From a virus: 64,000 bases of DNA. Of this stretch, positions 28,296 through 62,164 are shown piece after piece. The notes under the pieces are model-generated. The model saw only the letters and a program-made list of their open reading frames with translations, had not been told where the DNA came from and made no database searches. Within the stretch, counting starts at the first letter, position 1. Each line of letters opens with the position of its first letter. The stretch is from the IMG/VR virus record IMGVR_UViG_3300044695_002580, positions 32,882-96,881 of that record; one strand, 5' to 3'. Both the position numbers and the translations under genes were made by a program.

Positions 28296-29639
28296 CTAAA
28301 CCACTGTGGAGCCAGCGAAGGCATCACAGCTAAACGAAACGGTTGTGCGTAAAGGAATCATATCTTCTGTAAAGAAGGTGTGATTGATAGACATATTTGT
28401 TATCCATCCAACAAAAGATAGCTGCTGTTGAGCGTTAGGTCCGAACCTAAAGCCCAAGAGGCTAGGGGATAGGAACCCAATGTTCGCTGTCTTTTTAAGC
28501 ATCAGTGTTGCCCACTCACCAGAGCCTTGGTTAGCTCCGTTTCCATTTAGGGCCTTAAACAGATACTCAAGGTCAGCCATTGTTCCAAACTTCATTAGGT
28601 CATTAATCTTTTGTAAATTTACAGACCCAAGTCCAGATGGGTAGTAGTCCACAGCGTTACTTGGTATCTTGGCGTACTTACTTTCTCTAACCTGTGGGCT
28701 GTTTGCATTTACCTCTACAGCTTTTGGATGCTTCATTGAGTTTGCATACGTATCTCCAGCCATAGACCTTAGAGCTGCAAAGTCATTTACACGGTCTAAC
28801 ATAATCTGGAATTGGTATGTCTCTTGTCCAGGGAAGGCGCCTGCAACTGAACGGAAACGGTCAGCTGATGATGGGGTAACATCCATGTTTCTTGCAATAG
28901 AAGATGAGATAGTTTCTGGGTTCCATAGGAATTGAAAACCGTAGTTGTAGTTGTTCTCTTTTCCAGAGCCCTGCTTTAATATCTCATTCTTTTTATCTGC
29001 TTCTTTTGTTGCTGCCTGTAGTTGAGCTGCAGATGTAATTACTGTTGCGCCGTTTTCTTCTTTGCTAGCAGAGATGTCGCTTCCGTTACTCCAGTGCCAA
29101 ATAACACCTCTACGTAGTCTGTGGAAGTCGCCCTCGTGGTTGTTCTGTGCAACATTTCCTTTACCACTAGTACCGTCTACCGCGTGCGGTCTTACAGGTA
29201 GGCTCCACTTATGTGGCGGTAGGTTGTAGTCATAGTTTCTTGGTGGAAATGACTTAGTACTCTTATTGTCTGGAGGGGTACTCCCCACCAGATTGTTGTA
29301 ATCTTTTATCGCTGAGTTTTCCAAAGCTTTTCCAATAAGGGTTAGACCTAACCCAACACCTAGTCCAGGTAATCCACCAACTCTTACTATTTTGCCTGCT
29401 CTAGATAAAGCAACACCTACTGCTTGACGGTTGAGACCAGAGCCAACTACCGTTGAGGCCGCAGCAGCTGCAGCAACTGTAGGGGCCGCTGATGATGCAA
29501 TGCTTCCAGCAGTTGTTGATACTACGCTAGCTGTAGCTAGGTTGTTAATTCTTTTTAAAGCTTCAGCTTTTTTTACTGTTTCTTTTTTTACAGCAGCTTT
29601 CTTTTTTTGAAGTAATCCTGGAGGAACGATGAATGGCAT
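28296..29639 (-). CDS. baseplate/tube-initiator protein, 447 aa
   Basis: N-terminal 100 residues are Ala/Lys-rich with two weakly hydrophobic helices (low complexity). The C-terminal 250 residues contain YGFQFLWNPETISSSIARNM, FPGQETYQFQIMLDR and TFFTEDMIPLRTTVSF, a pattern found in proteins between tape measure and hub genes of contractile phages (T4 gp48/gp54-like or XkdP-like role, initiating the tail tube). Assignment is by position and weak similarity. Its ATG overlaps the tape-measure stop as TAATG. Confidence 0.72.
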   Translation of the reverse strand: MPFIVPPGLLQKKKAAVKKETVKKAEALKRINNLATASVVSTTAGSIASSAAPTVAAAAAASTVVGSGLNRQAVGVALSRAGKIVRVGGLPGLGVGLGLTLIGKALENSAIKDYNNLVGSTPPDNKSTKSFPPRNYDYNLPPHKWSLPVRPHAVDGTSGKGNVAQNNHEGDFHRLRRGVIWHWSNGSDISASKEENGATVITSAAQLQAATKEADKKNEILKQGSGKENNYNYGFQFLWNPETISSSIARNMDVTPSSADRFRSVAGAFPGQETYQFQIMLDRVNDFAALRSMAGDTYANSMKHPKAVEVNANSPQVRESKYAKIPSNAVDYYPSGLGSVNLQKINDLMKFGTMADLEYLFKALNGNGANQGSGEWATLMLKKTANIGFLSPSLLGFRFGPNAQQQLSFVGWITNMSINHTFFTEDMIPLRTTVSFSCDAFAGSTVV

Positions 29640-31909
29640 TAGTTTTTAGCCGCCTTATCTAGAGTCTCTGAGTTTGATAGAGCCGCCTTTAGGGCTGCAA
29701 TATTGTCTTGTGCGCTTCCTCCACCAGATAGGTTTACTGTAACGCCGCCATAGTTATACGTTGTAGCGCCTACCTGAGATGTTGTTTTTAGTGCAGGGCT
29801 TGACATAGAGGTAAAGCCTTTTAGTAAATCTGATACTAGATTTCTATTGTTGGTTCCTTCAGTGCTGAACAACTTAGACCAACTAAACTTGCCATCTTCT
29901 TTGCCGTTATTTTTAGCTGAAGCAGAGGAGAAGGTAGACCTATCTGAGCCACCATCACCTGAAGAGTTGTTGTTACCAAGCACAGATTTAGTAGACCAAG
30001 AGCTCCAGTTATATCCTTTTTGAGACATGTGGTATGCAACACGTGCATTAGTCTCTGCATCAAAAAGGTCGTTAACTGAATTTAACTTAAATGACTTACC
30101 GCCTGCCATGTTCCAAGACTTATTTAGACGTTCGTCCATAAGGTCGCCAAGCATGTTAATTTGGAATAGGCCATAGGAGAGGTCCCCACCATGTGGATTA
30201 AATGCGTATGGGCGTCCACCAGACTCAGCACCAGCAATCTTTAATGCGTTTGCTAATCCCTGTCCTTCAAAGCCCGCTCTTTCCAATACCTTCTTTAATT
30301 CATCTGGGCTCAACTTAATTCCGCTTGAGCCCTTAGGGCCTGTAAAGTTTCCATTGTGGCTGTGTCCTGGGTACGCAGCGCCACCCTCATGTCGGAATGG
30401 GTGGTTCTTTAACTCATGGTTAGGAACAATAATTCCTGGCTGTTCAGGGACGAATAGTTCTGGGCCCTGCTCACCTACAACGTAAGGCATCTTTCCACCA
30501 ACAGGTCCACCTTCTGCTCTAAACATATTACCAAGAAGACCACCTAGTAGTGGGCCAGCAGCAAAGTTAAACGCTCCAGACAATACATTGCCAAGACCGC
30601 TTTGCCCTAGTGTTCCTATACCGCTTTTAATTGCCCCAATTCCAGAGAACAGACCAGTAAATCTATCAATTAAGTTCATGAAACCTGTAAAGTAGCTAAG
30701 CACGCGGTTTGCATACGTGAAGGCGTCAGCCATAGCAGGTGCTGCTTGCTGTAGGGTTCTAGTAGATTCTGTAATTCTTTGGCTTAAAGAACTAACTGCA
30801 GGTGTAGTAGCGCCATACTTCTCACCAAGTTTTTTAAGGTCTCTTCCAGCAAAGGCCTGTCCACCACTTCGCGCTTTAAGCATAAGACCATCTTCTACCT
30901 GCTTACGAAGTAGGGGGTCATTTCCAAAGTATTGGTCAAGCATAGATGCCAGAGCATTACCAGGCTGTAAAGAGATAGCTACATCTTGAGCAGTTACGGG
31001 TTCATTGCCCATCTTTTCTCTCATTAACTTAGCCCAGATTTCATCAATAATCTGTGGCATAGGTTTCATAGAACCATCTTCACCACGGATACGGATACCA
31101 ATACCGCGAAGCATGTTGACGTTACGACCCTGTTGTATAGCGCCGTATGCTCTCATTGAGCCTTCAACACCAATACCAGGGGTAAGGTTAGACATCTGTG
31201 CTGCGCCAAGGGCTACGTTTGAAAAGTTAGGTCCACCAATACCAAGCTGTCTTGCAGCTTCCATTGCTTGTACAGTATCAAACTTACCTGTAGTAGTTCC
31301 CTGTCGACCCAACTGTTGCAACAAAGCAGTCGCTCTTGCATAGTCGCTGTTAGGGTCTGGATTACCTGGAATTAAATTAGAGAACGGTCTAATTCTTCCA
31401 CCAGGTTGATAAGAGGCCTGCTGCTGGTAGAACACCATTCTTTGAGTAGCTAGTTCATATTCAACAGCTTCTTTTGCTGTAGGCATTCCAGCAATTCCAC
31501 CAACAGCACCGCCCATTAAACCACGCTGCATTGCAGGCGACATACCTCCGCCACCGCCAGCGCCTGTTGGTGCGCCTGTGTAGTATGAAGGTAGAGGGCG
31601 GTAAGGTTCTATGCCAGGGGCATTAAATACTGTGTTATGCCCAGACTGACGGTACATGTACTCTTGGGATGTTTCACCCGCGCTTGTTACATTAAATACT
31701 GGAACAGGGGCAATTAAATTTGAACCAGGCTGTCCGTAGTTTCCGCGCCCATTGAGGCGTCCCATGGCCCCACCTAATAGGTTTGACCAATCACCTGTGC
31801 CTTGCTTTAGGAGGTTCATCTCCTGTCGCAGTGAAGACAGGCCAGTTCTTAGGGATGAGATGAATGCGGCAGCGTTAGAGCTACCCATGTTAAGGTCTTC
31901 TCTTGCCAT
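29639..31909 (-). CDS. tape measure protein with lytic transglycosylase domain
   Basis: A 756-residue protein: Gly/Pro/Gln-rich N terminus, helical middle, a hydrophobic segment near residues 390-440 (FTGFMNLIDRFTGLFSGIGAIKSGIG-type, shown in part), then an SLT domain at about 533-641. That domain has the catalytic Glu in KIAGAESGGRP (about residue 562) and SYGLFQINML. It sets tail length and probably cuts host peptidoglycan during DNA entry. The domain is closely related to the plus-strand lysin at 61619-62164. It is short for a myovirus tape measure, implying a short tail. I chose the ATG at 31909 (GAGGA five bases upstream). Confidence 0.9.
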   Translation of the reverse strand: MAREDLNMGSSNAAAFISSLRTGLSSLRQEMNLLKQGTGDWSNLLGGAMGRLNGRGNYGQPGSNLIAPVPVFNVTSAGETSQEYMYRQSGHNTVFNAPGIEPYRPLPSYYTGAPTGAGGGGGMSPAMQRGLMGGAVGGIAGMPTAKEAVEYELATQRMVFYQQQASYQPGGRIRPFSNLIPGNPDPNSDYARATALLQQLGRQGTTTGKFDTVQAMEAARQLGIGGPNFSNVALGAAQMSNLTPGIGVEGSMRAYGAIQQGRNVNMLRGIGIRIRGEDGSMKPMPQIIDEIWAKLMREKMGNEPVTAQDVAISLQPGNALASMLDQYFGNDPLLRKQVEDGLMLKARSGGQAFAGRDLKKLGEKYGATTPAVSSLSQRITESTRTLQQAAPAMADAFTYANRVLSYFTGFMNLIDRFTGLFSGIGAIKSGIGTLGQSGLGNVLSGAFNFAAGPLLGGLLGNMFRAEGGPVGGKMPYVVGEQGPELFVPEQPGIIVPNHELKNHPFRHEGGAAYPGHSHNGNFTGPKGSSGIKLSPDELKKVLERAGFEGQGLANALKIAGAESGGRPYAFNPHGGDLSYGLFQINMLGDLMDERLNKSWNMAGGKSFKLNSVNDLFDAETNARVAYHMSQKGYNWSSWSTKSVLGNNNSSGDGGSDRSTFSSASAKNNGKEDGKFSWSKLFSTEGTNNRNLVSDLLKGFTSMSSPALKTTSQVGATTYNYGGVTVNLSGGGSAQDNIAALKAALSNSETLDKAAKN

Positions 31910-31911
31910 CA

Positions 31912-32076
31912 CTATCCTCTAGGTTGGTATCGTTGGGAACGTTCTAACCAGTTCTGTCTTTCACGAACTGATAAGGCGCGTATATCTTTTAGTGTCCATC
32001 CAGTAAAAGACCTTGTTAGGACTTCATACTGGTCAAGTAGCTCTTCGTAATCTGCTTCGCTATATACGAAACAAAT
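31912..32076 (-). CDS. frameshift extension of the tail assembly chaperone
   Basis: An open frame of 54 codons that overlaps the end of the 264-residue gene in another frame and stops just before the tape-measure start. It has no ATG, GTG or TTG codon upstream of its conserved part. The sequence includes ADYEELLDQYEVLTRSFTGW and DIRALSVRERQNWLERS, a charged helical pattern usual for gpT-like extensions. In the 15-base overlap the 0 frame reads TTG TTT CGT ATA TAG. A +1 slip of the Phe tRNA from UUU to UUC before CGU joins the frames, giving a fusion of about 313 residues; a -2 slip reaches the same frame. Confidence 0.75.
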   Translation of the reverse strand: MCFVYSEADYEELLDQYEVLTRSFTGWTLKDIRALSVRERQNWLERSQRYQPRG

Positions 32077-32854
32077 CTAGCAAGCTCAGCGGTAGAGAGA
32101 TATCTTCACCGCATGCCTTGCAAGCTTTCTTCACCTCCCCAAGGCGAGGGCCTGGGTTGCGCTTGATAATCTCGTCGATTACGCGGGTGCGGTCTGCCAT
32201 ACCAAGTGATAGTGCAGTACCAGCTCCAACAGATGGTTCACCGTTTATTGAAACAATACATCCAGATAGTAAGAGTGTATTAATCTCGGCTGATGTCTTG
32301 TCGTAGTTTTCCATCAACCTTTTTTGTGTTATGCCGTTTGGAAGAGCCACAGTTACCTGGCCTTGCTTAGTATCCATAACCCATACGCGGTCTCCCACTG
32401 GGTCCTTCAACCTAACAACAGGAACATCTTCCACTAGGTCAATAGTTGTCTCATGCTCATCTTGGCAAGAGAAACACTTAACCATTAGGGTTGATGTCTG
32501 TCCAAATGTAACCCTTCTAATACCTAGAAGGATTGCGTCACGGTCTCCCGATAGCAACATATCTAGGTCGTCGGCTGTGGCTTCCTTGTCTCCAAGTTTC
32601 ACCAAGCCTCTGGCTAGTAGAACGTTGAGGGCCTTACCTGAAGAACCTGATTTAGCTACAGCTTCTTCGTCTGCTCCTGTTAGTTCTCTAACCTCTGCCG
32701 AGGTATGTAGTTCACCCTTAAGGTCAACAAAACCACCTGGCAGGTCTACCTCAGACTCAGAAGGCGCCCGCGTCTTAATCTTAGGCGCGGGCTCCTCTGA
32801 AATCTTTTCAGCAAACTGTTGTAGTAATTGTGCATCGGTAATAATGTCTGACAT
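32060..32854 (-). CDS. tail assembly chaperone (gpG-like), 264 aa
   Basis: Lies between the tube and tape-measure genes, where tail assembly chaperones are found. A disordered Pro/Glu-rich N terminus (1-35) precedes a folded part with LLSGDRDAILLGIRRVTFGQ, common in T4-type baseplate/chaperone proteins. Two Cys pairs (KCFSCQDEHE near 125 and ACKACGED near 246) probably make a zinc ribbon. Its TAG stop at 32062-32060 is preceded by the candidate slip site UUU-CGU (32071-32066). AGGAG ribosome-binding site upstream of the ATG. Confidence 0.8.
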   Translation of the reverse strand: MSDIITDAQLLQQFAEKISEEPAPKIKTRAPSESEVDLPGGFVDLKGELHTSAEVRELTGADEEAVAKSGSSGKALNVLLARGLVKLGDKEATADDLDMLLSGDRDAILLGIRRVTFGQTSTLMVKCFSCQDEHETTIDLVEDVPVVRLKDPVGDRVWVMDTKQGQVTVALPNGITQKRLMENYDKTSAEINTLLLSGCIVSINGEPSVGAGTALSLGMADRTRVIDEIIKRNPGPRLGEVKKACKACGEDISLPLSLLDLFRI

Positions 32855-32875: not shown

Positions 32876-33541
32876 TTAAAGCTTTCCAGTATCCTTACGG
32901 ATGTAGTTTGCATCAGTAAAGAACACTGACAAACCTTCGTGAACTAATGACATTGACTCATAAAGAATCGCTCCGTCAGCAGCATTTAGGTCTGTATAGT
33001 TTAGCGTAGTAATCCAAGCGTTATGAATCTTGAATCCCATACGTGGGGTGTTGTCGTTTACAGTGGTGGTTGCTGCGTTTGTAGCAGTGTTTGGGTGGTC
33101 CATGACATAGACGTTAATGTCTACGCGGAAGTTCTTGTCCACTCCACCTTGACGCATTGCAATACCTTCACCTGAAGCTGTAGCAAACAATCCACGCATC
33201 CAGGTAATAGCCTGGTCGTTTCCGTAGAGAACTCCACGCTGGAAGGTTACTGGTGAGAAGGTAGTCATACCAGGTACCTGGTGTACAGTGGTGTTGTAGC
33301 CACCTTCACGGTACTGGATTGACTGTGTGTTAATGCTTAGACCAGAGATTTGCGAGAAACCACCAATCCAGCTAGATGAGATACCAGATGTTGCTGGGTC
33401 TGCGCTTGAGCCAGTTAGGATTTTATCAGTGAACGGTGCGCCACCTTGAGCGGGTGTAAACTGTGCATAAAATCGGAACGAGCGTAGTGGGTCAGTCGCT
33501 AGCTTTGAGAAGCGATTGATGATACTTGAAGGGGTTGTCAT
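32876..33541 (-). CDS. tail tube protein (gp19-like)
   Basis: A 221-residue protein. The opening FRFYAQFTP, the GGFSQISGLSINTQSIQYREGG-type segment (in part) and the late NAWITTLNYTDLNAADGAILYESMSLVHEGL-type segment (in part) match the T4 gp19 / Hcp tail tube family. It stacks as hexamers to form the inner tube. It follows the sheath gene by 15 bases and carries a good GGAGAG ribosome-binding site, as expected for an abundant product. Confidence 0.93.
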   Translation of the reverse strand: MTTPSSIINRFSKLATDPLRSFRFYAQFTPAQGGAPFTDKILTGSSADPATSGISSSWIGGFSQISGLSINTQSIQYREGGYNTTVHQVPGMTTFSPVTFQRGVLYGNDQAITWMRGLFATASGEGIAMRQGGVDKNFRVDINVYVMDHPNTATNAATTTVNDNTPRMGFKIHNAWITTLNYTDLNAADGAILYESMSLVHEGLSVFFTDANYIRKDTGKL

Positions 33542-33556
33542 TTATTTGGCTCTCCT

Positions 33557-35059
33557 TTACGCAACAGTAACGGTGGTTCCACCGTCAAACTGGCCAATTT
33601 TGATGATTACGAATTCAGCTGGACGCTGTAGTGCAACGCCAACTTCAATGTTTACTTGGCCTTGGTCGATTAGGTACTGAGGGTTGTTCTCAGCATCGAC
33701 CTTGACAAAGAATGCCTGGTCAGGAGTAGCGCCACGTAGGCCTCCCTGTGACCAGAACTGTGTGAGGAATGAAGAGACTGTTGCATCTAGACGACGCCAT
33801 AGTCCTTCGTTGTTTGGCTCAAAGATTGCAAACTGTGTAAGGTCAGTAAGAGACTTGCGTAAGTAGATAAGTGAACGACGTACTGGTACGTACTTGTCGA
33901 TGTAACCTGCCTTAAGAGTTCTTGCTCCCATTACAACATAGCCTGAGCCTGGGATAAAGCGGATAGCGTTTACAGGGGCTGCTGCTGAGTTAAGAGAATC
34001 AAGGTTTGCATTTGTAAGCTGACGTGTAGAAACCACACCAGCAAGACGAGCCTGCAAACCAGCAGGTGCCTTGTAAACTCCACGAGAGTTGTCAGTAGTA
34101 GCGATAAGACCTGCCACAGCTGCTCCAGCACCTACAGTTACAGTTCTACCAGTGGTAGCACCTAGTGCAACAGTTGGGTCTGCAATAACTAGAGGTGGGT
34201 AGTAAACAGCTGCTAGAGAGCTTGCTGTGTACTGAGCAGAACGAGTTAGCTGGTCTGCTGGAGTGTTGTCAATTCCATCAATAACTACGAATACGTCATC
34301 GCGTGATTCAGCGTAGCTAATGGCAGCGTTTACAACGTTTACAGCTGTCTGACCTGGCAAGTTAAGAACCAAAGACTGAAGTACTGTATCAAATGCTGCA
34401 AGACCCGCTGAGTACTCTGTAACTGAGACTGCGTTTCCGACTGAACCGCCAGCAAGTGTTTGGTTAGCAACCACAGCTGGGTTTCTTGTAGTTCCAGTGT
34501 TTGAAGAGTTTAGGTCTGTCAATGTTACGTAGTTAGATGAAACATTAACCACGTTTAGTGCATAGCGTGTGTCAGTAGTTGTCATAGATAGCTGACTAAA
34601 TGTCTCTACAACATTTGAGTCTGTCTGACCACCGCTGTAGACGATAAGGTCAAAGTAGCCAGTTTCAATAGAGTTAGCAATAGAAATGTTTAGGTCATTT
34701 CCCCAGCGACCAGGGTTCTTAGCAGCTACTTGGAGAGTTGCTGAAGCGCTAACAGCTCGGTCATTGAGTGAACGAGTAGCAAGACCTGGGGCTGCTGCAA
34801 TACGTGTTACGTAAAGCTGGCTGCCACCATTTGAGAAAAACATGTAAACTGCAAGTGGCAATGAGTTGTTTGTATAAGAGTTCCAAGAACCAAACAATGT
34901 TACATACTGGTTCCAAGATGTTACGAGTGAAGGGGTGTTGATAGGACCGCGGTCGTTTTCACCAACTAAAGCTGTAACAAACTCTGAGTTAGTTCCAGCG
35001 ATTGGCTGTACAGGGTTCAACGTTTCTTGAACGTATACCCCAGGGCGTTGAAATGCCAT
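33557..35059 (-). CDS. contractile tail sheath protein
   Basis: A 500-residue protein. The start FQRPGVYVQETL, then FVTALVGENDRGP, YMFFSNGGSQLYVTRI, and the C-terminal YVPVRRSLIYLRKSLTDLTQFAIFEPN-type and FVKVDAENN segments are characteristic of gp18/FI-like sheath proteins. It proves a contractile (myovirus) tail. A strong AAGGAG precedes the ATG. Length is near the small end of the family, so the exposed insertion domain is modest. Confidence 0.96.
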   Translation of the reverse strand: MAFQRPGVYVQETLNPVQPIAGTNSEFVTALVGENDRGPINTPSLVTSWNQYVTLFGSWNSYTNNSLPLAVYMFFSNGGSQLYVTRIAAAPGLATRSLNDRAVSASATLQVAAKNPGRWGNDLNISIANSIETGYFDLIVYSGGQTDSNVVETFSQLSMTTTDTRYALNVVNVSSNYVTLTDLNSSNTGTTRNPAVVANQTLAGGSVGNAVSVTEYSAGLAAFDTVLQSLVLNLPGQTAVNVVNAAISYAESRDDVFVVIDGIDNTPADQLTRSAQYTASSLAAVYYPPLVIADPTVALGATTGRTVTVGAGAAVAGLIATTDNSRGVYKAPAGLQARLAGVVSTRQLTNANLDSLNSAAAPVNAIRFIPGSGYVVMGARTLKAGYIDKYVPVRRSLIYLRKSLTDLTQFAIFEPNNEGLWRRLDATVSSFLTQFWSQGGLRGATPDQAFFVKVDAENNPQYLIDQGQVNIEVGVALQRPAEFVIIKIGQFDGGTTVTVA

Positions 35060-38211: not shown

Positions 38212-38742
38212 CTACTTAATATACCCAGCGAGTGCCAGGAACTGTGGGTCGTTGACCATTTCATCTGCCATTACCTGCATACATTCTACAACCAAGAGTG
38301 TGAATCTTTCAGCAACAATGCCAGCCTGTTGGATGTAATAAGGGCGATAGACCTGGCCCTTCCATAAGATACGACCACGAGCTTGTAGGTCTGGGTTACC
38401 AATTACGCCTGGTGCAATCTTCTCTACGTCCTCAGCGTTAAGGGTGAGGTGTAGGGAGTCTGCGCCGTAGTAACCGCGTTGACTGTTCTTTACGCCACCT
38501 TGTTTAATGACGGCTCTTACTACTGGTAAATCAAATGGGCCTTTCCAGATACGACCACCAGTTGCAGTAGATAGGTCTTGTCCTACATCATAGATAGGGT
38601 CAACCACAGTAGCTACGGGGTCCCAGATAAACCACTTGGCTGTAGTTCCTACAGGCCTCTTAAGGTCTGCGTCTACGCCTTCTAATACTTTATTGGTTTC
38701 AAAGTCTGCATCAAAGCGACCACCTGGTGCGTGAGCTCTCAA
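38212..38742 (-). CDS. virion/neck protein, 176 aa
   Basis: Contains WFIWDPVATVVDPIYDVG, GGRIWKGPFDLPVVRAVI and ARGRILWKGQVYRPYYIQ. This looks like a head-tail connector or neck-whisker type structural protein; the call is by composition and position. The start is a TTG that forms TTGA with the glycosyltransferase stop. Confidence 0.65.
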   Translation of the reverse strand: MRAHAPGGRFDADFETNKVLEGVDADLKRPVGTTAKWFIWDPVATVVDPIYDVGQDLSTATGGRIWKGPFDLPVVRAVIKQGGVKNSQRGYYGADSLHLTLNAEDVEKIAPGVIGNPDLQARGRILWKGQVYRPYYIQQAGIVAERFTLLVVECMQVMADEMVNDPQFLALAGYIK

Positions 38743-39800
38743 TCTTCTACCGCCTTCTTGTAGAGTTCTAGGTTACCGACTATTCGCTCATCTGTAGGGC
38801 TCAACTCTGCGGCTATGGTTCCATATTCAAGGGCCATCTTCTTTTCACCTAACCAAAACGCACATACAGCAGCTAGGTCGTAGGGCTGTGCTCCCCAGGC
38901 AAATGCCTCATTTAAATAGTCCATACTTTTGTTTTTAATATTAACTGCCTTCTTAGCCCACATGTAGCACTCTTCAATACGGCCCTTGTCATAGTGATAC
39001 TGTGCCAGCTCTACATACGCCTCTCGTTTAGCGGGCTCTTCTTGAACAGCAAGCTTCCACCACTTAAGCTTCTCTGCTTCATCTGTAGAGCACTTGGCTA
39101 TGTAGCGCATAGAAGATGCTCGTTCAGCTTTCCATACCGCTTTAGGCAAAGATAGATGGCGTTTGAACTGAACCAACGCTTCCTCAATCTGTCCGTGAAA
39201 GAAAAGCTCACGAGCATAGTAGTAAGCATTACGGTCGTTGTGTGGGTCTTCTTCTATAGATAACTTAAGCAATGGAAGGTACTGTCCGCGAGACTTAGTG
39301 TCATCTGCCTTGTGCCATAGGCCTAGCTTTGACCAGTACTCTTTCTCAACAAGGCGGTCTGTATAGAGGCACTCGTGTACAGGATGTAGCCAGCGATACC
39401 CATGACGTGCATGAATCTTGTCACCAGCAAATGTAAGACCAGGGCTACCATCTGGATTAAAGTTCCACGTGTAGTCATACCGTATACGTGTAGTTCCTTT
39501 GGGCGCCTTTTCAATCTCATCACGCCAACCAGGCGCTAGCACTTCATCCATATCTAGTGAAATGCAATAGTCAATGTCGTCTGGCAATAGGGCGAGGGCT
39601 GCATTGCGAGCATCATCAAAGCGCCATGGTCGTACGCTTATTACGTGAACGTTAATGCCAAGCGCCAAGGCTTTCTCTACGGTTCCATCCGCAGAACCAG
39701 TATCAGCAATCATTAGGTAGTCCGCGTCTTTTGCGGATTCATACCAGCGTTCTACAAACTGTGCTTCATTTAATGCGATGGTGTATACGGCTATTTTCAT
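38739..39800 (-). CDS. family 2 glycosyltransferase with C-terminal TPR
   Basis: A 353-residue enzyme. Residues 1-110 are a GT-A fold: IAVYTIALNEAQFVERW, DTGSADGTVEKAL, then the DxD motif in YCISLDMDEVL, and PGWRDEI. Residues about 190-350 are helical pairs typical of tetratricopeptide repeats (AYVELAQYHYDKGRIEECY). It transfers a sugar from a nucleotide donor; the target is unknown, possibly a virion protein or host surface glycan. It lies among structural genes and begins after the terminator at 39825-39856, so it may have its own promoter. Confidence 0.9.
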   Translation of the reverse strand: MKIAVYTIALNEAQFVERWYESAKDADYLMIADTGSADGTVEKALALGINVHVISVRPWRFDDARNAALALLPDDIDYCISLDMDEVLAPGWRDEIEKAPKGTTRIRYDYTWNFNPDGSPGLTFAGDKIHARHGYRWLHPVHECLYTDRLVEKEYWSKLGLWHKADDTKSRGQYLPLLKLSIEEDPHNDRNAYYYARELFFHGQIEEALVQFKRHLSLPKAVWKAERASSMRYIAKCSTDEAEKLKWWKLAVQEEPAKREAYVELAQYHYDKGRIEECYMWAKKAVNIKNKSMDYLNEAFAWGAQPYDLAAVCAFWLGEKKMALEYGTIAAELSPTDERIVGNLELYKKAVED

Positions 39801-48262: not shown

Positions 48263-48676
48263 CTATATCAACGTAATCGGTGGTATCACGGTTTGTACCA
48301 CGTTAGTAAATCTAGTAACTGCTCCAACTGGGAAGTAAATTCCAGTTTGTAACAGCGCATCGTTAAGAAGCAGTTGTCCTACTCCACCATCGCCAGCTGG
48401 GCCCGCGACACCTGTTGGTCCGCGTTCACCTGTTGGTCCTGCGACACCATTAACACCAGCAGGTCCAGTGGCGCCATTGGCACCAGCAACTCCTGCAGGT
48501 CCAGTTGGGCCTTGAATACCTGAGGCATATACTAGCGCATTCCAGTTTTGTGTACCATTACCAATCTTAAACTTTCCAGTGTCAAGTTCAAGACCTAGTT
48601 CACCTTCTGAAAGTAGCGGGTTAGTGGTTGTCCACTGTGACGCCGTACCACGACGTAATTGTAATTTAATTGCCAT
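48263..48676 (-). CDS. collagen-like protein with Mtd-N-type head, 137 aa
   Basis: The first 50 residues (IKLQLRRGTASQWTTTNPLL, EGELGLELDTGKFKIGNGTQ) match the N-terminal domain of Mtd/fibre proteins that anchors them to the tail. Then Gly-x-y repeats (GPTGPAGVAGANGATGPAG) follow for about 40 residues, and a C-terminal beta tail. It is a short version of the 934-residue neighbour and starts by TAATG overlap with it. A collagen-like trimer is likely. The Mtd link does not imply a diversity-generating retroelement; none is seen. Confidence 0.8.
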   Translation of the reverse strand: MAIKLQLRRGTASQWTTTNPLLSEGELGLELDTGKFKIGNGTQNWNALVYASGIQGPTGPAGVAGANGATGPAGVNGVAGPTGERGPTGVAGPAGDGGVGQLLLNDALLQTGIYFPVGAVTRFTNVVQTVIPPITLI

Positions 48677-51480
48677 TAGTTACCGCTCACGTCTCCTCCG
48701 TTGATAGTTATAACTCCGCCATAGTTAGTATCGGGGCCGCCACCATCTACGTTCAATAGTGTAGTGCCTGTAGGGCCTGTTGGACCTAGTAAACCTTGGT
48801 TTCCTGTAGGACCTGTAGGACCTTGAATACCTGTAGGTCCTTGAATACCTTGTAATCCTGTAGGACCAGTTGCTCCAGTAGGACCCGTATTACCAATTGC
48901 AGCAGCAACAACGATTAACCAGTTTGCTGGGTCATCAACAGGTGTTATTCCTGCAGTAGAGGCGTTATTTCTACGGACGTATGTACCTTTAAGTGTTGGA
49001 GTGTCGTAGAAAACTGCCTGACCTGGTGAGTAACTAATTCCTGCTTGCCAAGTTCCAACAATTGTAAATGGCTGAGGACCAGTTGCACCTGTGGCACCTG
49101 TAGGACCAGTGATTGAAAGTCCTTGAATACCCGTAGGTCCTGTTGGACCTGCAACACCAGTTGCACCTGTAGGTCCCTGAACCTGACCAGCATTAATCCA
49201 CTGGTCGCCATCCCAAATAAATAGGTTTCCAGCTACTAAGTATGGGTCACCAGTTGTTGGAGTTGGGACAGCTGCAGTAAGTTCTTGGAATGTAGCAAAT
49301 GCATTAAGGATGTTTAAGCCACGGCCTTGTGGACCTGTAGGACCAAGTGGACCTGTAGGACCTAGAGGTCCTTGAACACCTGTAGGACCTATTGGTCCAG
49401 GTGTTGTTGATACGGGACCAGTATTACCTGTTGGACCAATAGGACCTTGGATACCCTGGATACCTTGAGGACCAGTGTCACCTTGAGCACCTGTAGGTCC
49501 TAGTAAACCTTGTGGACCTTGTGCTCCAGTCGCACCAGTAGGTCCTTGGATAGCGCCAGCGCTAATCCATTGTGAACCGCCCCATACAAATAGGACACCA
49601 TTAATTAAGTAACCGTCACCAGTTGCACCAACAGGTTGAGCAGCTTGAAGTTCTGCTAATGAGTTATAAGTTCCAAGAACATAAATAGATGCACCAGCAG
49701 GACCAACAGCACCTGTTGGACCTTGTGGACCTGTTGCACCAGCGGTACCTGCAGCACCTGGGGTACCAGCAGAACCTTGAACACCTTGAGGTCCTTGTGC
49801 ACCTGTAGCACCTTGTGGACCAGGAGCACCGATTGCACCAGTTGCTCCTGTTGCACCAGTTAGACCTTGCGGACCTGTAGGTCCAACAATACCTTGCGGA
49901 CCAGTAGGGCCTTCTACTGTGCTAGCCGCACCAGTTGCACCAGTTGGACCAGTTGCTCCCTGTGGACCAGCGGCTGTTAGACTAAATGAACCGTTAAGCG
50001 CAGAGTCTTCTTCTGAGACAAAGTAAAGAGTTGCAGGACCAGTAAATGGGACGTCCCAGAAAACAGTTCCACTTGCTACACCAGCAACAAAGTTACTGCT
50101 AAATCCTGTTGTGTATTGTGCACCTGAACTGTAGGCACCTGCTGTGGTTTGTACTCTAAATGTATAACCAGGGGTGTTGATATCAAGACGGTAACGAAGA
50201 CCACGGATAACAGTAATAGTTGGATTGTTTAATCCGTTAATAACGTACTGGCTAGCAGAACGAGTAACTGATAAATCAATACCACCAGAGATACCCTGCG
50301 GACCTGTAGGTCCTGGAACTGTAGAGGCGGCACCTGTTGCACCCGTAGGTCCTGTAGGACCTTGAGCGCCAGTAAAGCCGACTTCACCAGCAATAGTAAA
50401 TTGCCAAGAACTGAAGATGTCTCCACCAGGACCTTGGAAAATGTTTACATCTAGAGTTATTTGAGCGCCGTTTACCGCTGTAACAATTCCATCTAAAAAT
50501 ACGTTGTTATTTGCTACAGCTCTAACAATAGAGTTAACAATAAATGGGTGATTAGCAACGCTAAGAGTAAATGTTTTAAGACCAGTTCCTAAAGTAATTG
50601 GGCTTACAGATGTGATGCCAGCAAAACCTTGACCAACGGCACCAGTCGCACCTGTTGCACCAGTAGCACCAGTTGGACCTACGTTACCTTGAAGACCTGA
50701 GAAGCCTCGTTCACCTTGAGCACCTGTAGGTCCCTGCGGTCCTGCAAAACCTGTTGGACCTGTTGGACCTGTTGGGCCCGTATCACCTTGTGGACCTTGA
50801 GCACCTTGGAAACCTTGTGTACCACGTGGACCTGTTGCACCTGTTGGACCTGCGGTTCCTGAAGGACCTGTTGGACCTTCAAGGTTACCTACGTTCTTCC
50901 ATGCGGAAGTAACAGTGTCCCAAATAATTAAGTTACCGTTTGCAAGTAACCATGCTTCACCAGCTACGCCTGTTGGGCGGTCAGCTTGTAGTGCAGCAAG
51001 CGTTGCGTACTCTCCAAGAAGGTTTAATCCTTGACCAGGAGCACCAGTAGGACCTGTTGCACCAGCTAAACCAGAAACACCCTGAGCACCAGTGGCACCA
51101 GTAGGGCCTGCGTTTCCTTGATTACCTTGAGGTCCTGTAGCACCAGTTCGACCTGTTGGTCCTGTTGCTCCAGTTGCACCTGCAGGAATATTTAAAGTAT
51201 CAAATACCCAAGCGTTATTGCTGCGACGGTATAGACGTAGCTGTGTAGCGTTTCCAGTAATGCGGACAAAGGCCCAGTTAGTTGGAACTGGACTTGGGTT
51301 AGCAGCTTGAAGGTCAGCTAAGGTGTCATAAATACCAAGGTAACGAGAGTAATCTCCCTGAGGACCTGTAGGGCCAGTAGGACCTGTAGGTCCAGTCGGC
51401 CCATTTAAAGGGCCCGTTGGGCCTGTAGGCTGTGGGTACCAGTTACCGTTATCTGGCGGAACTATAATAATGTCTGGCAT
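48676..51480 (-). CDS. collagen-like fibre protein, 934 aa
   Basis: Long runs of Gly-Pro-Thr, Gly-Ala-Thr and Gly-Pro-Gln triplets form a collagen-like triple helix. Four short beta modules interrupt it, recognisable as LGxYxTLAxLQAxxP ... WDxxxxxWxNxG (near residues 48, 150, 605 and 720 by eye). A non-collagen beta region lies near residues 285-480, and [18 protein letters not shown], a carbohydrate-binding-like motif, near 810. Phage collagen-like fibres are known in several genera; bacterial GPT collagens such as BclA are O-glycosylated on Thr. Starts 2 bases after the connector gene with GGAG. Confidence 0.87.
48740..51440 (-). repeat. Gly-Pro-Thr coding repeats
   Basis: The collagen-like gene is made of many imperfect copies of a nine-base unit encoding Gly-Pro-Thr (plus-strand look: ggacctgtt, ggacctgta, ggtcctgtt). 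Copies are concentrated in six blocks separated by unique sequence. Synonymous third bases vary between copies, so the tract is old and maintained for protein, not recently expanded. It should be prone to slippage and recombination, changing fibre length. Confidence 0.85.
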
Positions 51481-61618: not shown

Positions 61619-62164
61619 ATGCTTAATATCAGAAAAGATACGATGGATAAGGTGGCTGTATTTGCAATGTACACGCTGTTGATAGGAGGACTCCCGCACG
61701 CAATTGCTAACGCAAATGAAGCGGGTGGGACGCCTGAGACAGCTGTGACAGTACAAGTAGATACTGTGGACCCACTTGACCAATACAGAGGAGCAAAAAA
61801 ACTGTCAGATACAGAATTAGTTGAACTGCTTAGCGCGGTTGGTTTTGAGGGAAAAGCTCTCAAGGTCGCCTACGCGGTTGCTAAGAAAGAGTCTAACGGT
61901 CGCCCTTTAGCCCATAACGGAGACGTTTCTACAGGAGACAACTCCTACGGGATGTTCCAGATTAATATGCTGGGAAGTCTCGGAGAAGATAGACGGGAGA
62001 AATTTGACCTCAAAACTAATAAAGACCTCTTTGAGCCCGTGACTAACGCACAAATTGCGTATCACATGTCAAACGGTGGAAAAGACTGGTCTGCCTGGAA
62101 AGTATACCCAGGCCAGAAAAATGGAGAAAGATACGAGAGCTTCCTAAGGGAGTTCCCAAACTAA
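61619..62164 (+). CDS. exported lytic transglycosylase (lysin), SLT domain
   Basis: The only plus-strand gene, 181 residues. An N-terminal signal peptide is likely: basic start, hydrophobic VAVFAMYTLLIGGL, then AIANA-N as cleavage site. The SLT domain covers residues about 60-165 with the catalytic Glu in AVAKKESNGRP and SYGMFQINMLG, closely related to the tape-measure SLT domain. It cuts peptidoglycan glycan chains. Strong AGGAG ribosome-binding site. Hairpins lie on both sides (61573-61597 and 62180-62212). A signal peptide means export by the host Sec system, less common for endolysins; a moron-type or accessory role is possible. Confidence 0.85.
   Translation: MLNIRKDTMDKVAVFAMYTLLIGGLPHAIANANEAGGTPETAVTVQVDTVDPLDQYRGAKKLSDTELVELLSAVGFEGKALKVAYAVAKKESNGRPLAHNGDVSTGDNSYGMFQINMLGSLGEDRREKFDLKTNKDLFEPVTNAQIAYHMSNGGKDWSAWKVYPGQKNGERYESFLREFPN

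Follow-up and report, generated by a model that had tools for sequence, protein, structure and literature searches.

In phage lambda, a gene between those of the tail tube and the tape measure protein gives a short product, gpG, and a frameshift-extended product, gpGT; equivalent pairs are E/E' of P2, gp41/gp42 of Mu and gp13/gp14 of HK97, and in all of these the shift is -1 or -2. To our knowledge, T4 is listed as an exception that has no G/GT frameshift. Shifts of +1 in phage structural genes are known from Listeria phage PSA and SPP1, and one has been predicted in the tail chaperone of HSTV-2 (PMC5009743, PMC3498833). A match to the site considered here comes from a eukaryotic RNA virus: influenza A PA-X is made by a +1 shift at UCC_UUU_CGU, and the study describing it foresaw further UUU_C sites of this kind, limited in the codons that they have in the E and A sites (PMC3498833). 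An earlier note on the phage DNA studied here had proposed, from the sequence, that a tail chaperone gene ends in such a site.

The DNA analysed, referred to below as the window, is a stretch of 64,000 nucleotides (IMG/VR record IMGVR_UViG_3300044695_002580, positions 32,882 to 96,881). The gene in question lies between tail tube and tape measure genes, inside a cluster whose upstream sheath gene makes the tail a contractile one:

33557-35059, minus strand: tail sheath gene (phrog_23 tail sheath, E=1.7e-48)
32876-33541, minus strand: tail tube protein gene of the gp19 family (PF06841, E=1.7e-23), directly upstream of the putative chaperone gene
32060-32854, minus strand: zero-frame gene of 264 aa, T4 gp26 family (PF12322), from the ORF list and Pfam
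32131-32158, minus strand: near-invariant nucleotide block AACCCAGGCCCWCGCCTNGGGGAGGTGA, which precedes the slip site by about 60-90 nt
32066-32074, minus strand: putative slip site UUG_UUU_CGU, with UUG in the E site (32074-32072), UUU in the P site (32071-32069), the skipped C at 32068 and the +1-frame A-site codon GUA at 32067-32065
32060-32062, minus strand: zero-frame stop TAG
31912-32067, minus strand: +1-frame extension, 51 codons past the slip and a stop; a putative GT-like tail, predicted to be helical
31915-32854, minus strand: predicted 313-aa fusion product (262 + 51 residues), with TTTC translated as one step and aligned with relatives
29639-31912, minus strand: tape measure protein gene, 757 aa, with a lysozyme-like domain (SLT_3, E=3.9e-15; phrog_10574 tail length tape measure, E=1.2e-6)

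The 264-codon frame ends CTG AGC TTG CTA GAT TTG TTT CGT ATA TAG. The +1 frame that overlaps it is closed upstream by a TAG at 32079-32077, opens at 32076 with ATT and continues for 54 codons to 31915; its own stop, TAG at 31914-31912, overlaps the start of the tape measure gene (GTG at 31912 or ATG at 31909). This is the arrangement that the earlier note had described, without naming the strand, and it is present in all 71 distinct loci of the window's clade, where relatives differ within the extension in the way expected of codons read in the +1 frame; chance does not account for it. The 264-aa protein matches PF12322 (E=1.2e-8; 35.3 bits against a Pfam gathering score of 24.5) and also phrog_150, which carries the label 'baseplate hub'. 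It contains two Cys pairs, C127/C130 and C245/C248, both invariant. The extension has the motif Y..L...Y..L.R.F.GW(T/S)L.(D/E)I..LS.RER.NWLER, recognisable as far as Streptomyces phages at about 35% overall identity, and a low-confidence single-sequence model (pLDDT 37) places helices at 269-284, 288-292 and 296-308. Elsewhere in the window we noted a glycosyltransferase-like ORF inside the tail gene cluster (38739-39800, minus strand; recognised by eye), a collagen-like GPTG-repeat protein of 934 aa among the structural genes (48676-51480, minus strand) and a separate, secreted-looking lysozyme-like ORF (61619-62164, plus strand) that resembles the lysozyme-like domain of the tape measure protein.

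Relatives were collected with the 264-aa protein, which gave 80 viral contigs, then with a deeper alignment and then with a Streptomyces phage homologue. Counts refer to distinct loci after removal of identical junctions; since many of the loci are closely related to one another, the counts do not equal numbers of independent events. UUU_C was invariant in 71/71 loci of the window's clade and in 18/18 actinophage or actinobacterial loci, and in every fetched relative with a complete junction the gene ends in UUU_C, with a +1-frame extension after it that is comparable in both length and sequence. The two frames are adjacent in every relative. Beyond its first base the A-site codon is free: CGU, CGC, CGA and CAA occur in the window's clade, and CGU, CGC, CGA, CGG, CAA, CAG, CUC or CCG in the two clades together. 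UUU_C and the extension are conserved, a check that the earlier note had proposed, and the remainder of its UUU-CGU is not. The zero-frame stop is not part of the signal, since TAG, TGA and TAA all occur among the relatives.

The isolated Streptomyces phages BRock, LuckySocke, GiJojo and pSt2308 illustrate the distant end of this range. Their gene ends CUG UUU CGC GAA CUC UGA/UAA (LuckySocke has CAG in place of CGC after UUU), with a homologous extension continuing in the +1 frame; UUU_CGC, UUU_CUC or UUU_CCG versions are found in Streptomyces, Saccharothrix and Terracoccus genome contigs. Because Streptomyces phages and actinobacterial contigs carry the UUU_C versions, the comparison suggests that the window belongs to a contractile-tailed phage with a host in the Actinobacteria.

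Selection on the extension is seen at two levels, in its retained motif and in its pattern of divergence. In pairwise comparisons of 63 loci, divergence at codon positions 1/2/3 of the +1 frame was 0.326/0.194/0.531, against 0.309/0.187/0.550 for the upstream zero-frame gene; by this measure both look like ordinary proteins, equally constrained. Codon use at the junction, compared over the same number of loci, departs from that of the gene. UUG encodes the E-site Leu in 62/63 loci, when it makes up 11% of the gene's Leu codons and other conserved Leu columns of the gene use 3-6 codons each; in the full set of the window's clade the E site is UUG in 70/71 and UUA in 1/71. The Phe at the slip site is UUU in 63/63, against 80% of the gene's Phe codons, and AGA or AGG, which supply 34% of the gene's Arg codons, never encode the Arg that follows.

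Taken together, the conserved slippery codon, the ease with which a P-site tRNA can re-pair after a +1 move (UUU to UUC) and the selected downstream frame provide very strong comparative support for the predicted +1 frameshifting on UUU_C. Most ribosomes would terminate at the TAG and release the 264-residue protein. In a minority, tRNA-Phe on the P-site UUU would move forward by one base and re-pair with UUC, the better match for its GAA anticodon, so that wobble pairing would be improved; 51 more codons would then be read to give a protein of 313 residues, the size that the earlier note had calculated for the fusion. We are highly confident that a minority slip of this type produces a long form, that the two products would make up a short/long pair like lambda G/GT, and that pairs of this kind in the gp26 family can arise either by slippage or from paralogues.

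The same extension could be expressed as a small gene in its own right, from a non-standard start or by re-initiation past the upstream stop, and GenBank does annotate small ORFs at this place in Streptomyces phages, SP-15, immuto and cyanophages. In three of the four Streptomyces phages named above the annotated ORF starts inside the conserved part (pSt2308 has none annotated); the LuckySocke start, MTIRERRHW, falls within the conserved domain. ATG, GTG and TTG are absent from all 54 codons of the window's +1 frame, which bears out the earlier argument against a separate gene; the list of starts is likewise empty in near-identical loci, and across relatives there is usually no usable start; in the window's clade, 41/71 loci have none of the three codons near the junction. 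Nor is the opening ATT of the +1 frame conserved, being replaced by ACT, TAT or other codons. A separate gene would also leave the invariant UUU_C and the selected E-site codon unexplained. Start codons do lie within the -1 frame of S-PM2, 121Q, C48C1 and LR756511, three of which have an ATG a few bases from the upstream stop, and re-initiation is possible for some loci of that -1 group, which is described below. As an account of the extension in general, we regard a separate gene as improbable.

A -2 slip, which the earlier note had offered beside +1 and which has been reported for Mu (PMC5009743, PMC3498833), would reach the same final frame with one extra residue (LF-F-VYSE). It would require UUU to re-pair with UGU or UAU, a mismatch, and would give the invariant C after UUU no role. 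The pattern of a fixed UUU and a fixed C in an otherwise free A site fits the +1 half of that proposal, and we consider the -2 half very improbable. Still less credible is a frame change produced by transcriptional slippage or mimicked by a sequencing or assembly indel. Some relatives do have a run of seven U (UUU_UUU_U); nothing of this sort is specific to the window, whose site is U3 only, and the two nearest clades together show the arrangement at 89 distinct loci whose flanking bases differ, as do finished isolate genomes. A ribosomal +1 slip on UUU_C thus remains the preferred reading.

Stimulators of +1 frameshifting (a stop or rare codon in the A site, an internal Shine-Dalgarno sequence, 3' structure) are common and not obligatory. 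No conserved 3' structure emerged from RNAalifold on 18 diverse loci (-16.5 kcal/mol, with a covariation term of -1.8 and one compensatory pair); with covariation nearly absent, a downstream pseudoknot or hairpin was rejected, and codons past the site vary at background level. Stimulation by a rare codon was also rejected: a pause is unlikely because CGU is the commonest Arg codon of the window (17.8 per 1000). With neither a 3' stimulator nor a rare CGU, slip efficiency may be low, possibly very low, which would be enough for a GT-like product. Upstream, a Shine-Dalgarno-like GGAGGTGA lies within the near-invariant block, and nothing resembling a Shine-Dalgarno sequence lies closer to the slip site. 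In that block the codons CGC, GGG, GAG and GTG are fixed in 63/63 loci, and the consensus fold contains a short hairpin, without covariation.

Two compositional features of the window bear on the choice of codons at the site. GATC occurs 0 times in the 64 kb, against 186 expected, and CCGG 0 times against 82 expected from trinucleotides, a pattern suggesting that two sites of restriction type are avoided completely. GATC is absent as well from ten relatives (L002, L007, L012, L022, L027, L031, L050, L060, L072 and L154) and present in six (L043, L044, L063, L128, L133 and L162). Avoidance of GATC could explain part of the E-site bias, as GAT CTN would create this sequence; it leaves the use of UUG over UUA unaccounted for, and the relatives that contain GATC also keep UUG or UUA. 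Across the ORFs of the window, the share of UUU among Phe codons is 71-82% before purines against 27-33% before pyrimidines (p=7e-35). Genome-wide avoidance of slippery sites was rejected as the cause, the bias not being specific to UUU: Ile AUU is similarly biased, and a general context effect may underlie both.

The likeness to PA-X that the earlier note had drawn holds for the tetramer, UUU_C with a CGN codon in the A site, and extends to a selected E-site codon and to the want of a known 3' stimulator (PMC3498833). The two differ in that CGU is rare in the hosts of influenza virus and the commonest Arg codon in the window phage, and in that the E-site codon here is UUG. The site also differs from PSA, in which the genes for capsid and tail shaft shift on a codon for proline; CCC_A appears in our comparison only in one distant subclade. 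The earlier note considered a +1 UUU-C site unusual for a phage tail gene; here the site is not a one-off, being conserved over several phage clades.

More distant PF12322 proteins were reached by tblastn and contig scans. A clade resembling Flavobacterium phages has a +1-frame extension in 79/79 loci, at UUU_C in 21 and at UUU_UUU_U in 58. In L180 and L205-L284 of this clade the sequence is mostly UUU_UUU_UGG, and such a run of seven U could permit slippage in transcription besides slippage of the ribosome. In an SP-15-like clade the +1-frame extension is present in 26/26 loci: 19 have UUU_C (mostly UUU_CGU), 2 UUU_U, 4 no candidate but CCC_A and 1 another sequence. The extension is kept in L304, L307, L309 and L313, where UUU_C is replaced and the common candidate is CCC_A in AAT CCC AGT. 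The E site in other clades is CUG/CUA or UUU/UUC. In a further group the extension lies in the -1 frame, and canonical U_UUU_UUY sites mark the junction in the cyanophages S-PM2 and C48C1, and likewise in the jumbo T4-like phages Atu_ph07, XacN1, PA5oct, 121Q, Phosso, Vibrio 2.275.O and RAS14; U_UUU_UUN is present in 9/10 T4-like phages with a single gene. The predicted slippage is thus wider than the earlier note proposed.

This family includes both gp26 and gp51 of T4, which match PF12322 with E=9e-64 and 4e-52. In T4 these are two separate genes, with no frameshift, whereas a single gene with a +1-frame tail is present in the window. T4 gp26 ends just past the Cys-rich end (...EFFELL), and gp51 continues in frame for about 45 residues. 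In profile comparisons this gp51 tail matched the -1 tails of cyanophages, Aeh1 and Vi01 with a probability of 97.1 (E 8e-11; 0.0 for the reversed control) and the tails of jumbo phages with a probability of 84.5 (control 1.1), which points to homology between the gp51 C-terminus and the -1 tails of single-gene relatives. The cyanophage tail and the C-terminus of T4 gp51 also match the same PHROG, 634, 'baseplate hub assembly catalyst'. For the window's clade the direct comparison of extension and gp51 tail is weak (probability 1.2), that with the cyanophage, Aeh1 and Vi01 tails is moderate (probability 50.8, E 1.6e-4), and a whole-protein profile of the fusion family aligned with gp51 in its middle part alone (probability 12). 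In this clade it is gene position, family and motif that carry the proposed link to gp51.

Gene copy numbers follow the same division. Two PF12322 genes are present in 5/5 straboviruses tested that encode gp51 (T4, JSE, KP15, Konradin and VP8), one for a gp26 that lacks the tail and one for a gp51 whose tail is in frame. Every PF12322-positive phage tested that has an out-of-frame tail has one such gene, and the phages with one gene all have a tail of this type. The cyanophage gp51 had been described as about 20% of the length of other gp51 proteins and without their first ~200 residues, and Aeh1 had been reported to have no gp51 (Sullivan et al. 2010, PMC3037559). For Aeh1 we predicted beforehand a single PF12322 gene followed by a -1 tail; this is what its genome contains (...EGWTIEELETTTPFERAIYRTLF... 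at GA U_UUU_UUC). Vi01 agrees, having a lone PF12322 gene followed by a -1 tail, with no canonical heptamer. With about 200 relatives compared, these results suggest that T4 has this short/long pair too, as genes 26 and 51, and that it arose there through duplication of a gene and not by slippage. It seems likely to us that both proteins go back to a single tail assembly chaperone with a frameshift, gp26 being its short, G-like form and gp51 its long, GT-like form, and that T4 lost the frameshift through the duplication. On this view the 'gp51' of cyanophages is an out-of-frame gp26 tail, as is the gp51 'missing' from Aeh1, and +1 slippage, -1 slippage and duplication are interchangeable in this family.

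What the two products do is suggested by gene position and the short/long arrangement, with weak support from the fold. An AlphaFold model of the 264-aa part alone (pLDDT 87), compared by Foldseek with 350,542 PDB chains, placed the HK97 tail assembly chaperone 2ob9 at ranks 1 and 3 (prob 0.92 and 0.77; target-normalised TM 0.52 and 0.58), with E=0.32, which is not significant; fold matches to viral gp26-like proteins reached E=6e-21. In Pfam the 264-aa protein has no match to a TAC family, and a sequence search of the PDB gave no match. The three lines of evidence favour the tail chaperone assignment made in the earlier note, with the family now specified as that of T4 gp26/gp51. As with lambda gpG/gpGT, the gene lies between tube and tape measure, would give a short and a frameshift-extended product, and would be expected to shift at a low level; it differs in that the protein is larger, belongs to PF12322 and has two Cys pairs, and in that the shift would be +1 at UUU_C with no stimulatory structure seen. 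The best reading, we infer, is a short/long chaperone pair equivalent to gpG and gpGT: the tape measure protein would be covered by many short and few long chains, and recruitment of tail tube subunits would fall to the extension as the GT-like part. The idea of a chaperone is not new, given that the submitters of the Acinetobacter phage Konradin call its gp26 and gp51 'tape measure protein assembly chaperone'. Our literature search, mostly outside subscription journals, found no report of this frameshift or of gp26 and gp51 as short and long equivalents.

The frameshift could be real and the protein a component of the baseplate hub, or a hub-assembly factor, and not a chaperone of the tape measure. 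The family label 'baseplate hub' agrees with this, and T4 gp26 and gp51 are classically termed hub-assembly chaperones (PMC3004832). The same source reports that gp51 is absent from the finished T4 particle; moreover, the gene shares with G/GT its place next to the tail tube and tape measure genes, between the two, and the top fold match in the PDB is a tail assembly chaperone. We find a hub role rather unlikely. Since the T4 hub contains the tape measure protein gp29, the hub and chaperone roles overlap in any case. The tail assembly chaperone pair is the reading we retain.

Frameshifting of G/GT type in tail chaperones is well known; what appears to be new here is a +1 shift, on UUU_C, with no evident stimulator, in the gp26 family. 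Slip site, out-of-frame extension, gene order and copy numbers can be read directly in the sequences; slippage, its frequency and the roles of the products are inferred. The loci make up a bacterial data set of well over 100 for putative +1 slippage at UUU_C, and they bear on which codons it prefers in the E and A sites, a point that the work on influenza PA-X had not settled (PMC3498833). They also correct the annotation of this family, in that the 'hypothetical' small ORFs and the short gp51 of cyanophages would be frameshift tails of the gp26 gene.
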